Positions 1 to 44,198 of a stretch of 64,000 nt of DNA are shown here, one piece after another. Under the pieces are notes generated by a model. The model was not told the origin of the DNA and searched no databases. It was given only the letters and a program-made list of their open reading frames with translations. The stretch comes from Planctomycetaceae bacterium (GTDB taxonomy: Bacteria > Planctomycetota > Planctomycetia > Pirellulales > Thermoguttaceae): NCBI GenBank assembly GCA_009778035.1, contig WRKP01000006.1:1-64000 (forward strand), read 5' to 3'. The translations under genes were made by a program, and so were the position numbers. Every line of letters begins with the position of its first letter. Position 1 is the first letter of the stretch.

Positions 1-3000
1 CGAGAACGGTAATTCCCTCGGTGGCCGGCTCTCCATTCGCCCGGTACCACGTAAACGTCGTCGTGGAAAGGTAGGTCCCGAACGAATAGAACGTGGAGAG
101 GTCAATCGTGCGGTCAGACCGGGAATATGGAGTAAGTGCCAGATCGTCGTTGATGAACATTTCCGCCCCCACCGGCAATGACTGCCAAATCTCCACCAAT
201 TCCGCGAGGGGAATGAGATTATTGGAAACATCCAGTTGCGTCAGGCCGGCCGGGAAGGTCAGATTGAGTGCCGTCAACTTGTTATTGGACACATCCAGCA
301 CTCTCAGGCTGTCCGGGTAGTCCCCTTGGAGTGCCGTCAGTTGGTTATTGGACACATCCAGTACATTCAACTCCGTCAGGCTGGAAATATCCAGTTTCGT
401 CAACTCGTTGCCGGCAACATCCAGGAGCGTCAAATTCGGCAGATCCAAGTACGCCCAGTTACCGTAAGCACCACTAATCGAAAAACTAATTCTATTCATT
501 TCCGTCAACGGCGTGTCGGTAATCTTCAGCGACTCCAGGCTCGGCATGGAAAGATACAAAGCCGGCTGGGCACCACTCGTCAAATTGCTAAATCCGGTCA
601 ATTCCAGTTCCTTCATCTGGGACTCGATGGTGTCTGTGAAAGATATCCGTATCGACCTCAATTCAGGCAGGTTGGTCCCGTTCAATCCCGTGAAGGTTTC
701 CAGCGATGATCGACTCATAAGGCCGGTGAAGGAGTGCGAGAGCACCAGGTGTTGCAGTTTTGACAGTCCGGTCAAGTCCAGGTCCGTGACGTTGTTGCGG
801 ACATTACTGAGAGTGAGTTTTTCCAGGTTTATCAGGCCGGAGAGGTCCAGTTGGAATCCAGTCCCGCTCTGCCCCACTCCCGAGAGGTCAAGTTCTTTCA
901 AATTTTCCAGGTCTTTGATATGCAAAGCGCTGAGGAGCTGGAGACTGTATATCTGAAGATTCTCCAGTTTTTCGCAACCGCGGAGGTCTATCTCGCTCAC
1001 TTCGAGGCGATCAAGTAGAACCGACCTCAGTTCCGTGAAGTTGGAAAAGTCGAGCGTTTGAATCGGGTAGAACTGGCCGGCGTTTGTATCTCTGATGACG
1101 ACTTCGGTGAGCCGGAATTGGCCGTCGATGATTGACCATACGGCCGGTTGTGAATAATGTGGGCCAGGCTTGTCGAGGCCATGTTCCATCACGAAGGCAT
1201 GTTCCCGTTCATTATACAGGGAATAGACCTCGGAGGGTTCGGAATAATCACCACTTTCGCTGATGGTAACGAGCACGATTCGGAGATTACTTCCGTCCGT
1301 CGGCACGTCGAATTCATACGAACGATTTGTCATTTTCAGCACGCTAGTTACCACGTCAGAATCGCCTTCATAGACCCAGAGTTCGTACCCGACGGCACCC
1401 GGGACGGCATCCCAGGAAAGCGTCAGTTTGCTCGACGTCAGGTGCGCGGTGGGTTTGGGCGGCGTTGCCGTCGGGAAGACCCCGACCGTTATTGCCGTCG
1501 ACACCATATTCGTTGCACGAGGATACGCCTCATTCTCCATCTTGACAACGAAGGATGATCCCACATCGAGGGTCTTATTGAACTCGAAGATGCCGTTGCC
1601 GAGATGGGTAATCAAGTCCGCCGATACCGGCGTGGTTAAATTACCCGCAGCGTACCAGGTGAACACGGTTTCATAGGTGGTAAAGACCTCTTCGGAGGTG
1701 AGATTCGCGAGAGTTAACCCCTGGGCCGCTAAACTTTGCACGAGACTGTCATCAAAGTCGAATGTCCCGTTGGGATAGCGAGTAACCAAACTGGGGTCCA
1801 CCTGAGTGCCGTCGGGATAAAACCAGAGAACATCCGACAGCGCCTCGAACTCGAATTCCGAGGAGAGGTCAACGGTGCGGTTATTGCTCGTGATGAATTC
1901 GGGAAGTTCCGGCGTTTGGTTAGGGGAGAAGCGACGATGGACGTCCACCCACCCAGAGGAAGGATTCCACCAAACGGGATAGAGAATCGGCTCGACGGTC
2001 CTGTAAATCTCATCCAATGTGGACAGGAAGAAGCGGTTCCCTTCGAGCCTTATGTTGTTTAACACACCTTCAATAGTGTCAAGGCCCCGCAGGGTGGTCA
2101 GTTCGTTATTCCACAAGCCTATGCTTATCAGTTTCGTGAGTCCCGTCAGGTCCAGTTCCTTGATTGGGAAATAGAGGATTTGGATGACTTGCAAATTGAC
2201 CAGTGCGGACAGGTCAAACGAGGTATGTTGGGGACCATCAGGAATCCTGGTGAGCGTCAGAGTATGAAGCCCTGTTAGCCCTGTCAGCCCTGACAGGTCG
2301 CTAATGTAGGTACCAGAGTTGTGGAAAGTATGCAAATTTGTTGTCAGTTGCGACCAGTCGAGTTCCGTGATGAGCGTCATGTTGATGTTCAGCCATTCCA
2401 ATTTTGGGCTGTCGGCAAGGTCGAGTTCCGTGACTGGGCTTGTTTCCAAGCCCAGGTATGTCAGATTCACGCAGCCGGTCAGGGTGATGGCCGTGATACC
2501 GGGGTTGCTGTCTAAACGCAGCCTTGTCAACTCCGAGCAGCCGGAGAAGTCAAACGCGCCGGAGATGCCCTCGGCGTGGGCATTGATTTCGGTGAGCCGG
2601 TGCTCGCCGTCGATTTGCCTCCAGGTGGCGTATTCCTGGAGTCCCTGGGATTGCACGAGGTTGTATTCGTGTTGGTTGTATGTTCTTCCGTCGACGACTA
2701 TTGTGGAGCCGCCGGGAGCGGGTTGCGTATCGATTCCGCCGGAAGTGCTGGAAATTTCGACGAACGGGCCGTATTCGGGCTCTTCGCAATCGTTCCCGCC
2801 ATCGCCGAAGGGTGTGGCACTGAGCATTTCGCGGCCTTCGAGTTCCTCGATTCGGCAGGCTCGGCCGCGTCTGCGTTTTTCGGCCCGCTTTTTGTCTAGA
2901 GAGTTGTTATTTAGAGAATTGCTGCGGGAATCACTATTGCCCCCCCCCCCCATTTTGTCTATTTTAACATTTTCGGAAAGCGATTTGAGGAGGGATTCGA

Positions 3001-3013
3001 TAATAGAAGGCAT
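1..3013 (-). CDS. Secreted leucine-rich-repeat surface protein, 3' end outside the window
   Basis: The reading frame is open from 3013 to the left edge (about 1004 codons; I checked the frame for stops), so the C-terminus is missing. The N-terminus has a basic stretch (KKRAEKRRRGR) followed by LEGREMLSA, the type of motif found at the start of large planctomycete exported proteins. After it come irregular leucine-rich repeats (for example LTELDLSG and LDVSNNQLTAL), then a fibronectin-III-like stretch around 1200-1450 (SWDAVPGAVGYELWVY), then more LRRs. A module reading roughly NRTVDLSS with FTWY occurs twice, near 1600-1900 and again near the left edge, and looks Ig-like. It is probably a cell-surface adhesin or binding protein; the ligand cannot be read from sequence. 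The start is uncertain: ATG at 3013 or ATG at 2953. Twelve consecutive G residues lie at 2940-2951, at the 2953 start or about 20 codons after the 3013 start. Confidence 0.85.
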   Translation of the reverse strand, partial: MPSIIESLLKSLSENVKIDKMGGGGNSDSRSNSLNNNSLDKKRAEKRRRGRACRIEELEGREMLSATPFGDGGNDCEEPEYGPFVEISSTSGGIDTQPAPGGSTIVVDGRTYNQHEYNLVQSQGLQEYATWRQIDGEHRLTEINAHAEGISGAFDFSGCSELTRLRLDSNPGITAITLTGCVNLTYLGLETSPVTELDLADSPKLEWLNINMTLITELDWSQLTTNLHTFHNSGTYISDLSGLTGLTGLHTLTLTRIPDGPQHTSFDLSALVNLQVIQILYFPIKELDLTGLTKLISIGLWNNELTTLRGLDTIEGVLNNIRLEGNRFFLSTLDEIYRTVEPILYPVWWNPSSGWVDVHRRFSPNQTPELPEFITSNNRTVDLSSEFEFEALSDVLWFYPDGTQVDPSLVTRYPNGTFDFDDSLVQSLAAQGLTLANLTSEEVFTTYETVFTWYAAGNLTTPVSADLITHLGNGIFEFNKTLDVGSSFVVKMENEAYPRATNMVSTAITVGVFPTATPPKPTAHLTSSKLTLSWDAVPGAVGYELWVYEGDSDVVTSVLKMTNRSYEFDVPTDGSNLRIVLVTISESGDYSEPSEVYSLYNEREHAFVMEHGLDKPGPHYSQPAVWSIIDGQFRLTEVVIRDTNAGQFYPIQTLDFSNFTELRSVLLDRLEVSEIDLRGCEKLENLQIYSLQLLSALHIKDLENLKELDLSGVGQSGTGFQLDLSGLINLEKLTLSNVRNNVTDLDLTGLSKLQHLVLSHSFTGLMSRSSLETFTGLNGTNLPELRSIRISFTDTIESQMKELELTGFSNLTSGAQPALYLSMPSLESLKITDTPLTEMNRISFSISGAYGNWAYLDLPNLTLLDVAGNELTKLDISSLTELNVLDVSNNQLTALQGDYPDSLRVLDVSNNKLTALNLTFPAGLTQLDVSNNLIPLAELVEIWQSLPVGAEMFINDDLALTPYSRSDRTIDLSTFYSFGTYLSTTTFTWYRANGEPATEGITVL
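2940..2951 (-). repeat. Poly-G tract of 12 at the 5' end of the LRR gene
   Basis: Twelve C residues on the plus strand read as twelve G residues in the LRR gene, giving Met-Gly-Gly-Gly-Gly. A gain or loss of one base would shift the whole downstream frame. Tracts of this kind act as slippage switches in other bacteria; here that is an inference. Confidence 0.9.
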
Positions 3014-5945
3014 CGTGCGTAAAGTGTGTTGGGTAAGGGGGTGTGATTGGAGCGGGCTTCCGGCCCTGCCGGATATGATAGCATAAACCGGAGAATCCCG
3101 CAAGAGTAACCGGATGATACGGCCATCCATCGCACCTGCTTGAGCGATACCGGCTACTACAGAATAACATGCCAACCGTTACCAACGGCACAATTTTCCA
3201 AAAACTTAGCCAATGCTTCTTAACTGTTCCATCCTTCATATTGCTGGTTCTCTCATTGATTTGCCAGTTTAGTTGGCCTCGTTCAATATATCCGCGTAAA
3301 ATCTTCACTATGTCCTTCTTGCCGTTAAGAAGAGTCCTATCAGGCCGTGAGAGCAGATAATTTTTGAGTTCAATCTGAGGAAAAGTAGAGCCGATGCCCA
3401 CTCTGTACTTGTTGCCGTCATTATCCACACAATAGAAATCTGACTTACCACTTTCGATTAACCGCAATTCTTCAAGTAAATCATCCATGTTATCTTCGTG
3501 TAAGTGTTCAGTCCCGTATTTTGTAGTGGCTTTATATCTGTCGACTTTTAGAGCCATCAAGTGATTGTACCAGTATGCGTGGACACGGGGAGACAAAGAG
3601 AGCCGCTTAAACTTTGCCTCATCTTCAGGATTGAACGCTGCATTATGCCCACCCTTTGACTCTCCCGCTCCAAGATAAGCGAATTTACGGATATAACTTT
3701 GGTTCAGAGGTATTCTTAATGTATTTGTCATCACGATCAAGAGGCTGCGAATTTCTGCGGTCTCCTCATTGGAATAGAGACTTCGCTTCGTATCGAAGGG
3801 AGCATCACAGATGTTTTTCAATACACCCAAGTCTGCCTTTGACAGGTCTTCCGATTCATCTGCGATTACGACCGATGAGTGGAACAGCGAGACGCATCCG
3901 GGCCTTCCGATTTCTAATTTATCTAAACTGTTTCGGCTTACGCCTGCGATGATGTTCCAAATGGCTAGGGAAAGGTCTTTTTTTGCCGTCCCGCCATCAT
4001 CCGCTATCAGAATAGTGCAAGGCCTGCCGTGCTTGCGATAAAGCCCTTGAACCATGTAGGCTAAAGAGTTCTCCAGATAGTCCCAGTCTCCACTGTACTT
4101 GCCATCCCTGTTCTCTTTCATCTGTTGCCAGTACCAACAGCAGTCTTCGTCCGTGACTTCAATTTCATCCTTATAAGTGGTGGTGCGAAATCGCGGTGTG
4201 GACATCGTGTTATGAGTAATAGTGCGAAGACCGATATCAATTTCCCACTCGTTCGGATTTGCGGGGTTGTCATCACGAACATAGGTGTAGCTATCTTCCG
4301 ACTTGAACGATTTTAACCAATTAGCTATTTGGCCGTCCACCGAAGTAATACTAGTCTTTGCATGCCATTCAAAATTCGCATCTCCTTGCAGGTAAAGGGT
4401 TAAATAATGCTTTGTGCCTCCCACTACACGCAGTGAAAGTGACTTGTTACTTTGATTTCTAAAAGTATTTGAAATTATGGGTTCTCCGTCTTGCAGTATC
4501 ATCACTTTATGTGTATCTGGTTTATTATTACTTTCTCTAAAAAAAGTAACAGAAGTAACAAATAATCCGTTTGCCTCTAGGATTTCACTGGTTTCACCAG
4601 TGTTACTTTGTGTGTTATTTTGTGTTACTTTCCCATACTTGGTCAGATATTCCTTCCAAACCGTCCGATCCTGTTTTACAATGAGTTCACCATTGTAGAG
4701 ATACACGCACCAGTCGGCCCGCCAACCATCATTGACTTTTGAGGTTGATATTTCCGAAGATTCGACCTTTGATTCTGGTGCATATCGCTCGTTCCGTTTC
4801 AGAGCAACAGATTTCGCAACGACATTCTCACCGTGAAAGTAGTTACGCGTCGTCTTCAAGTTCCGATGTCCGGCAACATGCTGGGCGGCCTCAATGCCAT
4901 GCTCAAGACCAACATTGGTAATGCCAGTATGTCGCAGTCCATACGGAAACCAGTGTGATACACATGCCCGCTTGCAAGCCCGCTCGATAGCCCGGTGATA
5001 AGCGTCAGCAGTATAGCAATCGTTGAAATGCTGTCTTGGATTTTTTGCCCTACTCGCATCTCTCTTCTGACGACTTGGTGTCTTCTTTTTTGACTTTGCC
5101 GCTTCCTGGCGTTTGACCTTGGTCTCTGCTACTGCATCTTGCGGACGGAATACACAGCCCTCTGTCCGGTTTCCAATAATCGGCAGGAGCAACTCTATCT
5201 CCGGCTTGGCCAAGTACAAAAATTTGTCATCAAAGTCCTCACGCCAATCGTTTTTATGTTCCGGCAATCGGACAGTCCATAAATCAGGATTACTTCGGTC
5301 GATATTTTCTATTTTCATTTCACAAATCTCGCTCGGCCTTGCGGCAGTAGCAAGATGGATACGAACCATTGTAGCAACCGTCGGTGTTAGTTCGGCCAAT
5401 GTCCGTTCAATATGTTCGCTCGGTACTACTTCACGTTTTTTACCTTTGGGAGCAGTAGTCTCGCCCTTCTTGAGTGGCTCTACAGTTCGCAAAGCACTCC
5501 ACACACTTTCTGCAAGGAGTTTGCGGCTCACTCCCCATTTGAAAATCGTGCGGACAAGACTTGCTCGCTTGTTGCACTGCTGCCGGACATAGCCTAACTT
5601 GACAAATTCGGCCTGCAAAGTTCGCAGTTTATTTGGAGAAAACTCGCTTGCCGGTAGTCCGCTGTATTGTAGCAGAATGATTTCGACCAGTGATTTGTAG
5701 TGTTCCAGTTGCTTGACAGCGATTTTGGATTTCCTGTCCTCCAGAAATCGCAGGCAGAGTTCATCGACCGTGATGCCGTTTTTATTTCTTGGCGGCTCGA
5801 GGGCATTGGCATGAAATTGGGCGATAACCCGGTGATATTCCCGTTTGGCTTCGGCGGTGCCGTGTGCTCCAAGATAGATTTTGCGTCCGTGAACGCGGAC
5901 ATAGGCAAGATTGCCCTGTTTGCATAGTTTCGGTGTTTTTGACAT
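2964..5945 (-). CDS. Tyrosine recombinase fused to an SF3-helicase-like ATPase
   Basis: One uninterrupted 993-residue frame. Residues 1-390 form a tyrosine integrase: an N-terminal arm/core-binding region, the first catalytic Arg in TAARPSEI (203), the RHTG box (LRHTG, 338-341) and the terminal AGH...NYF box with nucleophile Tyr369. Residues 390-600 are unassigned. Residues 640-760 resemble a superfamily 3 helicase of phage/plasmid replication proteins: a Walker B-like VVIADES (692-697), an LKNICDAPF segment, and a motif C-like LLIVMTNT ending in Asn741. The Walker A position reads DDGGTAKK, without the canonical GK[ST]. The last roughly 70 residues look unlike protein-coding sequence and overlap the LRR gene start by 50 nt. 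The gene is visibly AT-rich relative to neighbours and sits next to the 3' end of tRNA-Ala, as integrases of tRNA-targeting elements do. Integrase assignment is firm; the helicase assignment is moderate. Confidence 0.82.
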   Translation of the reverse strand: MSKTPKLCKQGNLAYVRVHGRKIYLGAHGTAEAKREYHRVIAQFHANALEPPRNKNGITVDELCLRFLEDRKSKIAVKQLEHYKSLVEIILLQYSGLPASEFSPNKLRTLQAEFVKLGYVRQQCNKRASLVRTIFKWGVSRKLLAESVWSALRTVEPLKKGETTAPKGKKREVVPSEHIERTLAELTPTVATMVRIHLATAARPSEICEMKIENIDRSNPDLWTVRLPEHKNDWREDFDDKFLYLAKPEIELLLPIIGNRTEGCVFRPQDAVAETKVKRQEAAKSKKKTPSRQKRDASRAKNPRQHFNDCYTADAYHRAIERACKRACVSHWFPYGLRHTGITNVGLEHGIEAAQHVAGHRNLKTTRNYFHGENVVAKSVALKRNERYAPESKVESSEISTSKVNDGWRADWCVYLYNGELIVKQDRTVWKEYLTKYGKVTQNNTQSNTGETSEILEANGLFVTSVTFFRESNNKPDTHKVMILQDGEPIISNTFRNQSNKSLSLRVVGGTKHYLTLYLQGDANFEWHAKTSITSVDGQIANWLKSFKSEDSYTYVRDDNPANPNEWEIDIGLRTITHNTMSTPRFRTTTYKDEIEVTDEDCCWYWQQMKENRDGKYSGDWDYLENSLAYMVQGLYRKHGRPCTILIADDGGTAKKDLSLAIWNIIAGVSRNSLDKLEIGRPGCVSLFHSSVVIADESEDLSKADLGVLKNICDAPFDTKRSLYSNEETAEIRSLLIVMTNTLRIPLNQSYIRKFAYLGAGESKGGHNAAFNPEDEAKFKRLSLSPRVHAYWYNHLMALKVDRYKATTKYGTEHLHEDNMDDLLEELRLIESGKSDFYCVDNDGNKYRVGIGSTFPQIELKNYLLSRPDRTLLNGKKDIVKILRGYIERGQLNWQINERTSNMKDGTVKKHWLSFWKIVPLVTVGMLFCSSRYRSSRCDGWPYHPVTLAGFSGLCYHIRQGRKPAPITPPYPTHFTHDAFYYRIPPQIAFRKC

Positions 5946-5969
5946 TGATTGCGTACCTTTACCGCCGGA

Positions 5970-6014
5970 AAGTCCATAGTGGACTTTTTTTACCGGCGTA
6001 ACTTGTGGTTACGC
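5970..6014. promoter_or_regulatory. Two adjacent inverted repeats upstream of the integrase gene
   Basis: AAGTCCA-TAG-TGGACTT lies at 5970-5986 and GCGTAAC-TTGTG-GTTACGC at 5996-6014, both perfect. They lie between the integrase start and the tRNA-Ala 3' end. Likely roles are an operator for integrase autoregulation or recombinase/excisionase binding sites in the attachment region; the sequence alone does not decide. Confidence 0.5.
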
Positions 6015-6062
6015 AACAGATTCAATTTCCGCAACTCCTGAATCTACAAGATATTACACCAA

Positions 6063-6135
6063 TGGAGGATAACGGACTTGAACCGATGACCTTCTGGCTG
6101 CCAGCCAGACGCTCTCCCAACTGAGCTAATCCCCC
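6063..6135 (-). tRNA. tRNA-Ala (anticodon GGC)
   Basis: A complete 73-nt cloverleaf on the minus strand. The acceptor stem GGGGGAT pairs with ATCCTCC and contains a G3:U70 pair, the alanine identity element. The anticodon loop is CTGGCAG, giving anticodon GGC; the T-arm contains GGTTCAAGTCC. The discriminator is A and CCA is not encoded. The 3' end faces the integrase gene, the usual arrangement when a tRNA serves as an integration target. Confidence 0.95.
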
Positions 6136-6152
6136 ACGGAAAACAAGTCCGA

Positions 6153-6180
6153 ATTATACCAAATAATTAACACCGTGCAA
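6153..6180 (-). promoter_or_regulatory. Promoter of tRNA-Ala
   Basis: Reading the minus strand, TTGCAC (6180-6175), a 16-nt spacer and TATAAT (6158-6153) match a sigma-70 promoter. The predicted transcription start lies about 10 nt before the mature tRNA 5' end. Confidence 0.7.
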
Positions 6181-6351
6181 AGGGGAGCGTCATCCAAATC
6201 AGGGATTGCTCCAAATACCAGAAACTGACGCAAGACCAGCGGATGCACGTAATTGTTGTAGTGTCGGCTCATGTTCAAGTAGTCAACACTGTCGCTACAA
6301 ATCGTAGGAATGGCGCATTTTCGCCAACTCTGATGGCACTGCCACGAAAAA

Positions 6352-21231: not shown

Positions 21232-22524
21232 ATGGCTGTGCTCTTGCTTATAATTCTGTTGGTCGTGATCATTCCGCTCGCAGAAGGGGTGTTGCTCGCG
21301 TTCCTTTTACGGGAAATCTACAACAAGCATCCCCTCCCGCTCGGCGGCACCATCGGCAAACGCGAACCGCCGCAACCCAAGGTGCGTATCGTTGAAGAAG
21401 ACGTTGCCGAGGAGGCCGAAGAGGAGGTCTCCGAAGTCGATTCACCACCCGAAGACCCGGCGGAGGAGGAAAATGAACCCGAGGAGGCCCCTGATGAAGA
21501 GCCGCAGGCGAAGCCATCGCCGGAAAAAGACGATGAAGACGCGTCACTGACAGGCCCTGATGGTTTGCCCGTCAGCGATGTGTTGGCCGAAATGATGGCA
21601 GAAATTGAAGCAGCCATTCCGGGCGATTTGGAACGCACCATCGAAGAAGCATCGTTGTCGCCTGACGCTCTTTTGCCGAAAATGCAGGCTCTTGACGAAG
21701 AACAGCAGGAAAAAGAGCAATATGATGAGGATCTGCAGGCGTTGGCGGATACGTTGCAGGAAGAAAAAATTGATCTTGCGGAAGAATTCGACGGGTTTGA
21801 CGGCGATGCGGAAGATTCGGGTGCGATTTCCTCCTTGGCCAAAGACGTACTCGGCGAAGATTTTGATTTCGACTCGCTCACAAAGCAACCGCTTGAACAA
21901 TCTGAATCGTCTGCCGACGAGCCGGATTCCGAAGGCGTCGGCGAATCGGACGAACCGAACTATGCCGGCTTGCCAGACATCCCGGATGTTTTCGATGACC
22001 TGCCGGAAACGATGCCGGATTTGTCGGATGCTGCATCGGAACCACTGGATGCGTCCGACGACCTGCCGGAAACGATGCCGGATTTGTCGGATGCCGCATC
22101 AGAACCGCCAGATGTTTCCGATGACCTGCCGGATATGATGCCGGATTTGTCGGATGCCGCATCGGAATTGCCGGATATTTCCGCCGATTTGCCGGAAATT
22201 GCGGCAGACCTTTCGGATGAGACCGCGGAGCCGCCGGAAATTATTTCAGAGCAATCGGGGGAAGCAGAGTATGCGGAATTGCCGGAGTTAGAGATTTTTG
22301 AGGATGAATCCGGCACGGTGCAGGTATCGAGCCCTTTTATATCGTCGGTCATTCCGCAGTTGGCGGATTTTTCGGCACCGCAGACGATAGTTCCGACGTT
22401 TTCGAGCGACTGGATTCAGGAGTCGGCCAGCGTATTGGAACCCTTCGAGGGCGATGTCTCACAATTTTGTTATACCGAAGAGTCCCGACCGATGTTCGTG
22501 CGCAGGAAAGGAGGTCCGCGTTAA
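21232..22524 (+). CDS. Membrane-anchored, highly acidic protein with 21-residue tandem repeats
   Basis: 430 residues. Residues 2-27 form one membrane helix (AVLLLIILLVVIIPLAEGVLLAF), followed by a short basic segment and then a long Asp/Glu/Pro-rich, probably disordered region. Between about residues 255 and 338 there are four 21-residue repeats of the type DDLPETMPDLSDAASEP, progressively diverged. The C-terminal 70 residues are less acidic and may fold. No family recognised. The sequence suggests a stalk-like linker or a protein-binding surface attached to the membrane; which side it faces is not clear. Confidence 0.75.
   Translation: MAVLLLIILLVVIIPLAEGVLLAFLLREIYNKHPLPLGGTIGKREPPQPKVRIVEEDVAEEAEEEVSEVDSPPEDPAEEENEPEEAPDEEPQAKPSPEKDDEDASLTGPDGLPVSDVLAEMMAEIEAAIPGDLERTIEEASLSPDALLPKMQALDEEQQEKEQYDEDLQALADTLQEEKIDLAEEFDGFDGDAEDSGAISSLAKDVLGEDFDFDSLTKQPLEQSESSADEPDSEGVGESDEPNYAGLPDIPDVFDDLPETMPDLSDAASEPLDASDDLPETMPDLSDAASEPPDVSDDLPDMMPDLSDAASELPDISADLPEIAADLSDETAEPPEIISEQSGEAEYAELPELEIFEDESGTVQVSSPFISSVIPQLADFSAPQTIVPTFSSDWIQESASVLEPFEGDVSQFCYTEESRPMFVRRKGGPR
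21994..22245 (+). repeat. Four 63-bp in-frame tandem repeats
   Basis: Units at 21994, 22057, 22120 and 22183 each encode a 21-residue acidic module. The first two are most alike at the DNA level and the fourth most diverged, as expected from successive duplication. Confidence 0.85.
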
Positions 22525-41521: not shown

Positions 41522-41776
41522 AACTTTGACACAACACCGCTACATAGTGCCGCCGATCATTCTAGTGTCGAAGTGTTGACATACCATATCGCCCAAGGTG
41601 CCGACATTAACCCAAGCCTTAATGATGGTCGAACACTACTGGACGTTGCCAACACGGAAGAGAAGAAGGCAATACTCCGAGCGGGGGGGCAGCAATGGGA
41701 TGCCCCTGCTGGCCCGCGTTGGACGTTTTTGTTTCGTCTGTACTACCAGCCGCCGTTCCTATGGGGTGTTCAATGA
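41522..41776 (+). pseudogene. Ankyrin-repeat protein remnant
   Basis: The plus frame reads DTTPLHSAADHSSVEVLTYH and continues AQGADIN...GRTLLDVA, a diverged ankyrin repeat. The frame is closed by TGA at 41474 and has no credible start or N-terminus, so it is a fragment. Its last 18 nt overlap the 3' end of the KAP NTPase gene on the other strand. The remaining 170 nt of the gap up to argD hold a GCCATTTCAAATGGC palindrome near 41430 and nothing else I recognise. Confidence 0.6.
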
Positions 41777-44014
41777 TGTTTTAAAGTAGTATCCCTGTAG
41801 TATCCCTGAATCAGATATTATTTTCTTGAAATCGTCATCTGTAATCACCTCCCTTGAAACAAATGATTCCAATACTCCCAGTATTTTTTCTCTAGACAGC
41901 GTACTTGGTAATCCGTGCCATCGGGTTAAATATATACCTTCACCGGCATCCTCCTTGACCTCATGCCGACGTCCAAAATAGTGAAGAACAGCAGCGCACA
42001 GAGAAATGTTCGGCAGGATTGCAGAAAAAATTGTTTCAAACCAAGGCAATAATAGTTCTGGTACTCTGTCTTTTTGTTCAATTCCGCCCACTATTCGTGG
42101 ATAATTCTTATCGCTTTCATAGTCACGCACTAAATGCCATTGCCGGCTCAATAACTTCAAGGGTACAGATGTATCAATTTTACTATCCGCAAGTTCCAGA
42201 ATCACCGCTTTTGTCAAATCCAACAGTGAAGCATCATTAACTGAAGATAACCAACGGCTGTGCAACTCTAAATATACTAGATCTGTACCAGCAATAATAT
42301 GTACAAGTGTTTTTCTATCGGTACTATGATTCCAATCCTCTATTGCTCGTAGTTGTTTTTGATCTCTTTCCACATCAGGAACGTGTTCATTGATAATCCT
42401 TGAGAAATAGTCTACGGGTTTTACGTTACGGATCCGGCGCGTAGTCTTGGACATCTTTATATTATCAAAGAATAACCATTCCAGTATCTGTGCGTGCCGT
42501 TTGTAGATTTCATTCTCCTTAACTATTTCTCTGATTTCATTATCTCGATTACGAAGTATGGACAAATTTTCCACAATAAAATCAAAAACTGAATTATCAG
42601 TATTGCGTAGAATCGTCAAGGCAAGCAGTTCCACATAGTCGCACTCACCACGCAATTTTCCCCACGTAACATCAAGGTCTCGAATGATTGTTTTGAATGT
42701 TCGTGGTGTATCAATTAATTCTAACAATGCTGAATAGACACCCACTTCTGTTAAATAGGGGATTTTTTCAAGTATTTCGTTATCGTCTTTTGGTTCCACT
42801 ACACCCTTGCTTTGATGTTTGGCGATTGTTGCCAGGCACGTAGACTTATCCCGAAAGGACATCACTGGGACTTCCTCGACATAATCGCAAATCTTCACAA
42901 AATCAAGCCGCTCTTCATTTTTACGATAGGAATCTGTAATGACAAAAGACACACATTCCGTGTTTCGTAAACGGCGCAGCGTTGCATCGACACTATCGTG
43001 TCGGATATCATTATTTTTGTTGCGGTCCAAATCTTCAAGGATTAAAACCATTTTTTTTCCTTCGGAACGCAACAAATTGTCAATCTTTTTTAGTACATTC
43101 TCCGGTATGTTCACCTCACGAAATAATTCGGTAATGATATCGAAAATGGTATGTGTCTTTGCCAATGCCCGAACATATTGTTGTGGAATATGAGTCAGGT
43201 GGTCGGTATCCAACCCAACCATGGTCATTCCATCAATGATTTTTTTGATAATATATTGCAATGCTGATTGCGAGTCTTCAAAACCCCAGCAATCCGCACG
43301 GACAAAGATAATGTCTTTACGTCCTTTCTTCTCTATTACGATATTTTCAACCAATTCCGTTATAGTCGATTTGCCGGAACCATATTGTCCACGCAAGCGA
43401 ATAGTGGCATTGCCTTTTATGTTGATACTGTTGATTAGGCGAGTAGCAATTTTTTCGGCTTTTAGAGTAAAATTAAAAAAATCCTCTTGGGGTGGGTTGT
43501 CATCTTTTGCCCAATCAAGCATTTCTTCAGAAGACAGTTCGAAAATGAAGCGTTGCTGTATTTCGACATATCTTTTTTCACGTTTTTTTTGGCAGAGGCA
43601 GGATGTTTCTCGAAAAATTATCAGTAAAACAAGAATAATTGCCCCGAACAGCCAATACCATTTCTTTATGCCATCCCATTCCTCAAAAAAGATGATTTGA
43701 TACACATAACCGCTTGCAATGATGGCGGCAACTGCAAAATAATCGGCTATTCTAGCCTCCCAACCTCTATAGGCGAACCAAGTAGAAAAATTATCCCATT
43801 TCCGGTATAGAAAAACAAATATGCCGCCAAATATAATGCTGAATAACACAGCAAGTGGGGCTACTTCTAATTTATCACTCTTACAAGCGATAACATCAAA
43901 ACGGTAGATAGCAAGCGGCACAATGGCAAAACAAGCATAGACACCAATCACAGCCGGCACTCTGCGGGCAATCATTCGACAAAAACGTAGAAATCTGTCA
44001 TTTTTTTTTGGCAT
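41759..44014 (-). CDS. KAP-family P-loop NTPase with membrane segments
   Basis: 751 residues. Four hydrophobic segments in the first 150 residues (about 22-40, 52-70, 90-110, 120-140) anchor it in the membrane. The KAP ATPase core follows, with Walker A GQYGSGKST (about 207-215) and Walker B VLILEDLDR (about 320). The C-terminal half is helical with no known domain. KAP NTPases are sporadic, often mobile, and several are linked to phage or plasmid exclusion. The gene is strongly AT-rich beside its neighbours and is flanked by an ankyrin remnant and a DUF362 remnant. ATG 44014 (MPKKNDRF) is chosen; the TTG 44059 extension lies in the remnant. Confidence 0.82.
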   Translation of the reverse strand: MPKKNDRFLRFCRMIARRVPAVIGVYACFAIVPLAIYRFDVIACKSDKLEVAPLAVLFSIIFGGIFVFLYRKWDNFSTWFAYRGWEARIADYFAVAAIIASGYVYQIIFFEEWDGIKKWYWLFGAIILVLLIIFRETSCLCQKKREKRYVEIQQRFIFELSSEEMLDWAKDDNPPQEDFFNFTLKAEKIATRLINSINIKGNATIRLRGQYGSGKSTITELVENIVIEKKGRKDIIFVRADCWGFEDSQSALQYIIKKIIDGMTMVGLDTDHLTHIPQQYVRALAKTHTIFDIITELFREVNIPENVLKKIDNLLRSEGKKMVLILEDLDRNKNNDIRHDSVDATLRRLRNTECVSFVITDSYRKNEERLDFVKICDYVEEVPVMSFRDKSTCLATIAKHQSKGVVEPKDDNEILEKIPYLTEVGVYSALLELIDTPRTFKTIIRDLDVTWGKLRGECDYVELLALTILRNTDNSVFDFIVENLSILRNRDNEIREIVKENEIYKRHAQILEWLFFDNIKMSKTTRRIRNVKPVDYFSRIINEHVPDVERDQKQLRAIEDWNHSTDRKTLVHIIAGTDLVYLELHSRWLSSVNDASLLDLTKAVILELADSKIDTSVPLKLLSRQWHLVRDYESDKNYPRIVGGIEQKDRVPELLLPWFETIFSAILPNISLCAAVLHYFGRRHEVKEDAGEGIYLTRWHGLPSTLSREKILGVLESFVSREVITDDDFKKIISDSGILQGYYFKTSLNTP

Positions 44015-44045
44015 TCCGATATTGTAGCAAAAGTTGGCGACGGCA

Positions 44046-44198
44046 AACAGGCTCGTCAATAACGAAGCTCGGTTTGATAACGACGTTCATTCCGGTTTTG
44101 AGCCGATTGCCGACGGCAGTTTCCCGTAGAAACGTGTGGGTCATCTCCGCTACGTCCGTACCGTAGATGATGGCGATGTCGCTCTCGGCAATTTTCTC
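44046..44198 (-). pseudogene. DUF362-family N-terminal fragment
   Basis: The minus frame reads EKIAESDIAIIYGTDVAEMT, then TFLRETAVGNRLKTG and MNVVIKPSFVIDEPV. This matches the start of DUF362 proteins (an initial beta strand, the EEMT helix, then a G-x-x-VxIKPNFV strand). It breaks off after EPV at the KAP gene and is closed by TGA at 43998; upstream it is closed by another stop with no ATG. It is therefore a broken gene cut at the KAP boundary. Confidence 0.55.

Follow-up and report, generated by a model that had tools for sequence, protein, structure and literature searches.

A tRNA-associated tyrosine integrase joined in frame to a probable SF3 helicase-like domain in one planctomycete draft genome

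Background

Class I tRNA integrases rebuild the tRNA that they target, and anticodon-loop sites have been described (PMC8371274). Helicases of known elements are either fused to a primase or encoded near one, and SaPI Rep and Cch2 have been proposed as replication initiators (PMC7581432). A public integrase catalogue discards tyrosine integrases above 800 aa, and long integrase fusions would for this reason be missed in it (PMC12884075). No report of an integrase-helicase fusion was found in the open-access papers searched.

Here we describe a frame of Planctomycetaceae bacterium (assembly GCA_009778035.1) that shares features with two kinds of described system. Its N-terminal half is like the tRNA-targeting tyrosine integrases of genomic islands (PF00589; phrog_1) in catalytic residues and in length. 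Further points of likeness are the site just past a tRNA 3' end and an orphan 3' half of the tRNA on another contig of the assembly. Known integrase relatives stop near residue 385-400, whereas this frame runs 535 codons further. The additional part has the same motif order and spacing as D5/P4-type SF3 helicases (DUF5906 PF19263, SaPI5 Rep, SCCmec Cch2, phage primase-helicases), and a winged helix after the ATPase is predicted likewise. Unlike these helicases, it has no Pfam match and no primase domain, carries a degenerate P-loop and is fused to an integrase.

Results

Organization of the locus

The analysed stretch of DNA (hereafter the window) comes from a 79-kb contig, of which it is the first 64 kb; DNA to its left is absent. 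The contig belongs to a 2.46-Mb draft assembly of 76 contigs, 75% complete with 3.4% contamination. Neighbouring genes and the related genomes agree with a planctomycete-type host. A 993-codon open reading frame (2964-5945, minus strand) begins with ATG and has no internal stop. The first-pass annotation had proposed one frame uniting a tyrosine recombinase with a helicase-like region, and this frame is indeed present and uninterrupted. Its reported AT-richness is likewise borne out (GC 0.45-0.48 versus about 0.53 for the window). Base composition shifts at the integrase/helicase joint: the integrase half has a GC content of 0.49, which falls to 0.405 over residues 391-600. Coordinates of all features are listed in Table 1.

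Table 1. Features of the fusion gene and its surroundings in the window
Feature	Position	Strand	Basis
Sigma-70-like tRNA promoter, TTTGCA-17-TATAAT, extended -10	6153..6181	-	consensus scan only
tRNA-Ala(GGC), presumed attachment gene	6062..6136	-	ARAGORN; Rfam RF00005 64.1 bits
Leader between tRNA-Ala and integrase, presumed attP arm and/or integrase leader	5946..6061	-	
Tyrosine integrase domain, residues 1-390	4776..5945	-	PF00589 7e-10; phrog_1 5e-26; catalytic residues; C-termini of relatives
Unassigned linker/D5_N-like position, residues 391-560, most AT-rich part	4266..4775	-	no database match
TGTTACTT, five copies on both strands, possible iterons	4445..4630	.	p about 0.012 in a local simulation, without correction
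SF3-helicase-like ATPase core, residues 603-743	3717..4139	-	aligned to D5/P4-type SF3 profiles
Degenerate Walker A, DDGGTAKK replacing GxGxNGKS, residues 649-656	3978..4001	-	alignment A4 (viral SF3 sequences)
Walker B VVIADES, residues 692-698	3852..3872	-	
SF3 motif C/sensor 1 LLIVMTN, residues 735-741, invariant Asn retained	3723..3743	-	
Predicted winged-helix-like C-terminal domain, residues 876-917	3195..3320	-	guided AlphaFold2, pLDDT about 78-86
Probable read-through into spacer before LRR gene, residues 926-993	2964..3170	-	codon-position GC pattern

The gene was also said to abut the 3' end of tRNA-Ala. It does lie on that side of the tRNA, but not in direct contact, the start codon being 117 bp past the 3' end. 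The leader in between is conserved and structured (z = -4.0 in RNA folding). Comparison across the genus showed that synteny of the tRNA-Ala gene is not conserved and is uninformative here.

At the other end, the frame stops 11 bases short of the following gene's ATG. In codons 926-993 the second codon position is the most GC-rich, a non-coding pattern. Judged from this pattern, the true C-terminus probably lies near residue 925, and the last ~68 codons are probably read-through. Taken with the loss of a stop codon, the end of the frame looks like a result of read-through after truncation or rearrangement at about window position 3165.

Integrase half belongs to a widespread family

The match of the integrase half to PF00589 (39.3 bits) exceeds the curated cut-off of 27.1, and Arg203, Lys231, Arg338, His339, His360 and Tyr369 are all in place. 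The description of this part as an intact tyrosine recombinase, based on residues such as Arg203 and Tyr369, is thereby confirmed. The first histidine position of box II is occupied by Tyr335; since Asn, Tyr or Gly stands there across the whole integrase family, this is not a defect of the window copy.

Relatives of the integrase occur in 46 of 119 genomes of the same family (E up to 1e-20) and in 221 of 398 genomes of the same class (E up to 1e-15). They are free frames of about 370-550 aa, whose C-termini all fall near residue 385-400 of the window protein. About 21 of 29 sampled loci are situated 100-200 bp past a tRNA gene; the tRNAs concerned are Ala, Val, Arg, Pro, Asn, Ile, Phe and Gly.

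A second copy of the integrase is found in the same genome at tRNA-Val(TAC) (contig C2, L007 5663-8090). Its 117-bp leader is 97% identical to that of the window, and its first 126 codons show 92% DNA identity (dN 0.037, dS 0.275, dN/dS about 0.14). This copy is interrupted by IS630-like and IS1595-like sequences, the IS types being assigned by eye. That near-identical integrases lie at both an Ala and a Val tRNA of one genome suggests that the integrase has moved recently and is under purifying selection, and the presence of such similar proteins at two tRNA genes also makes the family of some use.

C-terminal half probably descends from SF3 helicases

Searches with residues 391-925 retrieved nothing from Pfam, NCBIfam, PHROGs or PDB sequences, even at E 1-10, and noise only from 119 genomes of the same family, 392 genomes of the phylum, GTDB contigs, IMG/VR, phages and plasmids. 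DUF5906 (PF19263) did not match at E up to 10, and neither an AEP nor a TOPRIM primase domain was found by Pfam, NCBIfam or PHROGs.

More sensitive comparisons, which partly share query and related profiles and are thus not independent of one another, point to SF3 helicases. A profile built from DUF5906-type SF3 helicases of same-family genomes scores 9.3 bits against residues 669-744 (E 3e-5 for a single comparison); the match ranks second of 5,002, with one shuffle above it, and comes first when set among 1,085 background ORFs. When viral SF3 sequences were added, the score rose to 14.3 bits (HMMER E 8e-7, again for a single comparison) and topped all 5,000 shuffles. Using hhalign, 136-141 columns were aligned to SF3 profiles over residues about 600-745, with E of 2.3e-4 and 6.7e-4. 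The hhalign score of 36.6 stands above both controls: 150 shuffles reached at most 25.1, and the highest value among unrelated ORFs, 30.7, belonged to a ClpX-like AAA+ protein. The profile of the TARxLY phage helicase subtype gave no HMMER score, though hhalign E was 7e-4. On such remote statistics, SF3 homology of the C-terminal half is probable.

The motif strings named in the first-pass annotation are all located where it had placed them. In an alignment with 73 viral SF3 sequences, the C-terminal half retains K655 (99% conserved), the LK lysine K710 (99%) and N741 (100%), while the P-loop positions G649 and G654 (100% each) and S656 (97%) are replaced. With two invariant glycines and the serine changed, the Walker A motif GxxGxGK[ST] is absent; Walker B, the LK lysine and the motif C asparagine follow in the right order and register. 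R753 within YIRKF occupies a plausible arginine-finger position, where the alignments either stop short or put another arginine. An SF3 half with such a P-loop probably cannot hydrolyse ATP. The proposed SF3-like ATPase is supported by the weak in-register match to D5/P4 profiles, Walker B and motif C, and is let down by Walker A: residues 391-925 probably represent a divergent SF3 helicase-like domain that is likely ATPase-dead.

Structure prediction by AlphaFold2 without alignment gave a pLDDT of 33 for the C-terminal half and was discarded. A model guided by an SF3 alignment reached 63 overall and 71-89 over the ATPase core and displays an SF3-like ATPase fold; because its alignment consisted of SF3 proteins, it indicates compatibility with SF3 and is no proof. 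Foldseek comparison of this guided model with PDB retrieved SF3 and AAA+ structures at E 3e-5 to 1e-3. Its neighbours include SaPI5 primase-helicase 7ola, papillomavirus E1, NrS-1, poxvirus D5 and ASFV PrimPol, besides ClpA/ClpB-type AAA+ proteins and RuvB, and for the most part viral primase-helicases in BFVD.

The fusion was found in one assembly only

No full-length integrase-helicase fusion was detected in 119 same-family genomes, 398 same-class genomes or viral loci. SF3 helicases of the same family are separate frames, and many of them begin with a primase-type region several hundred residues long. That integrase and helicase genes are separate in relatives, and the fusion absent there, goes largely against the first-pass proposal. 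One candidate for a second fusion, a 1043-aa frame of genome G554, was rejected, as the integrase reaches its stop and an unrelated ORF follows in the same frame.

The closest parallel is a locus of the same family (L036 1378-3502, contig G115:C74), where a member of the integrase family and an SF3 fragment lie next to tRNA-Arg(CCT). As in the window, the same integrase family and SF3 helicase sequence meet at a tRNA. Unlike in the window, both genes are truncated: the integrase ends after LRHS and is directly joined, in a different frame, to an SF3 half that lacks its N-terminus and has a normal P-loop (GQGANGKS). Judging by its sequence, this locus is a plain deletion remnant and a precedent for joining by deletion. 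By analogy, the window gene is most simply seen as a similar joining, but in frame and with the integrase left whole.

Boundaries of the element

A duplicate of the tRNA-Ala 3' end, expected by the first-pass annotation, does not occur in the window with up to 3 mismatches. A compact element ending at about 3165 was considered and dropped, as the left 6 kb contain no exact tRNA-Ala repeat of at least 10 bases.

In the whole assembly, the sole other copy of the tRNA-Ala(GGC) 3' half is a perfect 44-bp stretch on contig C67 (L014 8242-8285). It spans the region from the anticodon loop to the 3' end and lies two bases past the groES stop. This orphan has the form expected of a putative att scar. 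We did not adopt it as the far end of the window element: its neighbours (groES and others) are of chromosomal type, and linkage is not assumed. In a related genome, another tRNA-Ala(GGC) 3'-half orphan is present at L068 around 60-110 (G104:C668), with unrelated sequence on its 5' side.

Discussion

Our best reading of the locus is an in-frame fusion within a shrinking integrated element. Stated in full, an integrase of a widespread planctomycete-type, tRNA-targeting family has, in this lineage alone, become fused in frame to the helicase portion of an SF3 replication initiator of D5/P4 type, which now survives as a relic or an appendage; we give this account roughly even chances. The integrase half would recombine the tRNA gene with an attP site and so rebuild the tRNA; the attP core would equal the tRNA-Ala 3' half, anticodon loop through CCA. 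The helicase half would descend from a Rep or primase-helicase that formerly lay deeper within an element of this type, and loss of the intervening DNA, a stop codon included, would have placed it beside the integrase. The deletion event itself is suggested by one analogous locus. Along with its P-loop, the helicase half would have lost ATP hydrolysis. The integrase would then be the working part, and the helicase half a relic, or an appendage that at most binds DNA or oligomerises. Against a relic speak the about 535 stop-free codons of the helicase half, expected only if the relic is young or selected.

Alternatively, the C-terminal half might have no relation to SF3 helicases and be a lineage-specific domain in which short motifs look SF3-like by chance, as the empty database searches at E 1-10 and the poor alignment-free model (pLDDT 33) would allow. 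We regard this as unlikely, given an in-register match of 141-150 columns that beats shuffles and other P-loop proteins, and a score that climbs with a broader profile, one subtype profile alone being scoreless in HMMER. A further explanation is a chimeric metagenome contig, in which assembly joined the integrase end to a foreign helicase gene. The draft is fragmented into 76 contigs, with the incompleteness and contamination given above; composition shifts at the joint, and the architecture is seen in this assembly only. An artefact is nevertheless improbable, as the joint is exactly in frame (chance 1 in 3) and the integrase half is native to the genome, with a C2 copy 92-97% identical.

The remaining possibility is a working bifunctional protein: the SF3 half would act on an origin, perhaps the TGTTACTT cluster, to replicate the excised element, and the integrase would insert and excise it. 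If active, the SF3 half would form a ring and, by analogy with SaPI Rep and Cch2, serve as replication initiator. The long open frame agrees with this, as do the colinear SF3 motifs with Walker B, motif C asparagine and LK lysine retained, the winged helix predicted where origin binding would be, and the repeat cluster within the AT-rich part. That cluster is a possible candidate origin, but it is statistically weak and chance is also able to explain it. The P-loop moreover lacks the GxGxGK[ST] features that are 97-100% conserved in SF3, neither a primase nor a fused relative was identified, and no distal att or whole element was found. Taken together, we consider a working initiator rather unlikely. 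The same degenerate P-loop and missing primase, fused relative and distal boundary leave the compact element of the first-pass annotation, with a single integrating and replicating protein, without backing. It seems quite doubtful that a minimal element of planctomycete-type bacteria carries one protein for both insertion at a tRNA and initiation of replication, or one in which a catalytically dead SF3 ring serves the integrase as a DNA-binding scaffold.

The in-frame fusion is a curious one-off from one draft genome and no proven new kind of mobile element. If conserved and active, such a fusion would couple integration and replication of a mobile element within one polypeptide. Even as a relic, it points to integrase-side fusions being overlooked (compare the 800-aa cut of the integrase catalogue, PMC12884075).

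Other features of the window and genus

A leader motif, AATGTTAAAATAG(G/A)CAAN2-4 with 8-14 consecutive G after it, occupies window positions 2937-2972 (minus strand). It is a repeat found throughout the genus at many loci (L110-L120); some relatives have dozens of copies in a genome, and type IV prepilin-like genes (FTLVELLVVIAIIG) often begin a short distance downstream. The window copy of the motif coincides with the start codon of the LRR surface-protein gene (ATG and 11 G, 2940-2951). It may serve as an unusual promoter or as a tract for phase variation.

Elsewhere in the window, an AT-rich stretch (41762-44086, minus strand, GC 0.39) carries a gene for a KAP-family P-loop ATPase and was likely acquired. 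A tandem repeat with a 63-bp unit in about 3.4 copies is located at 21982-22235.
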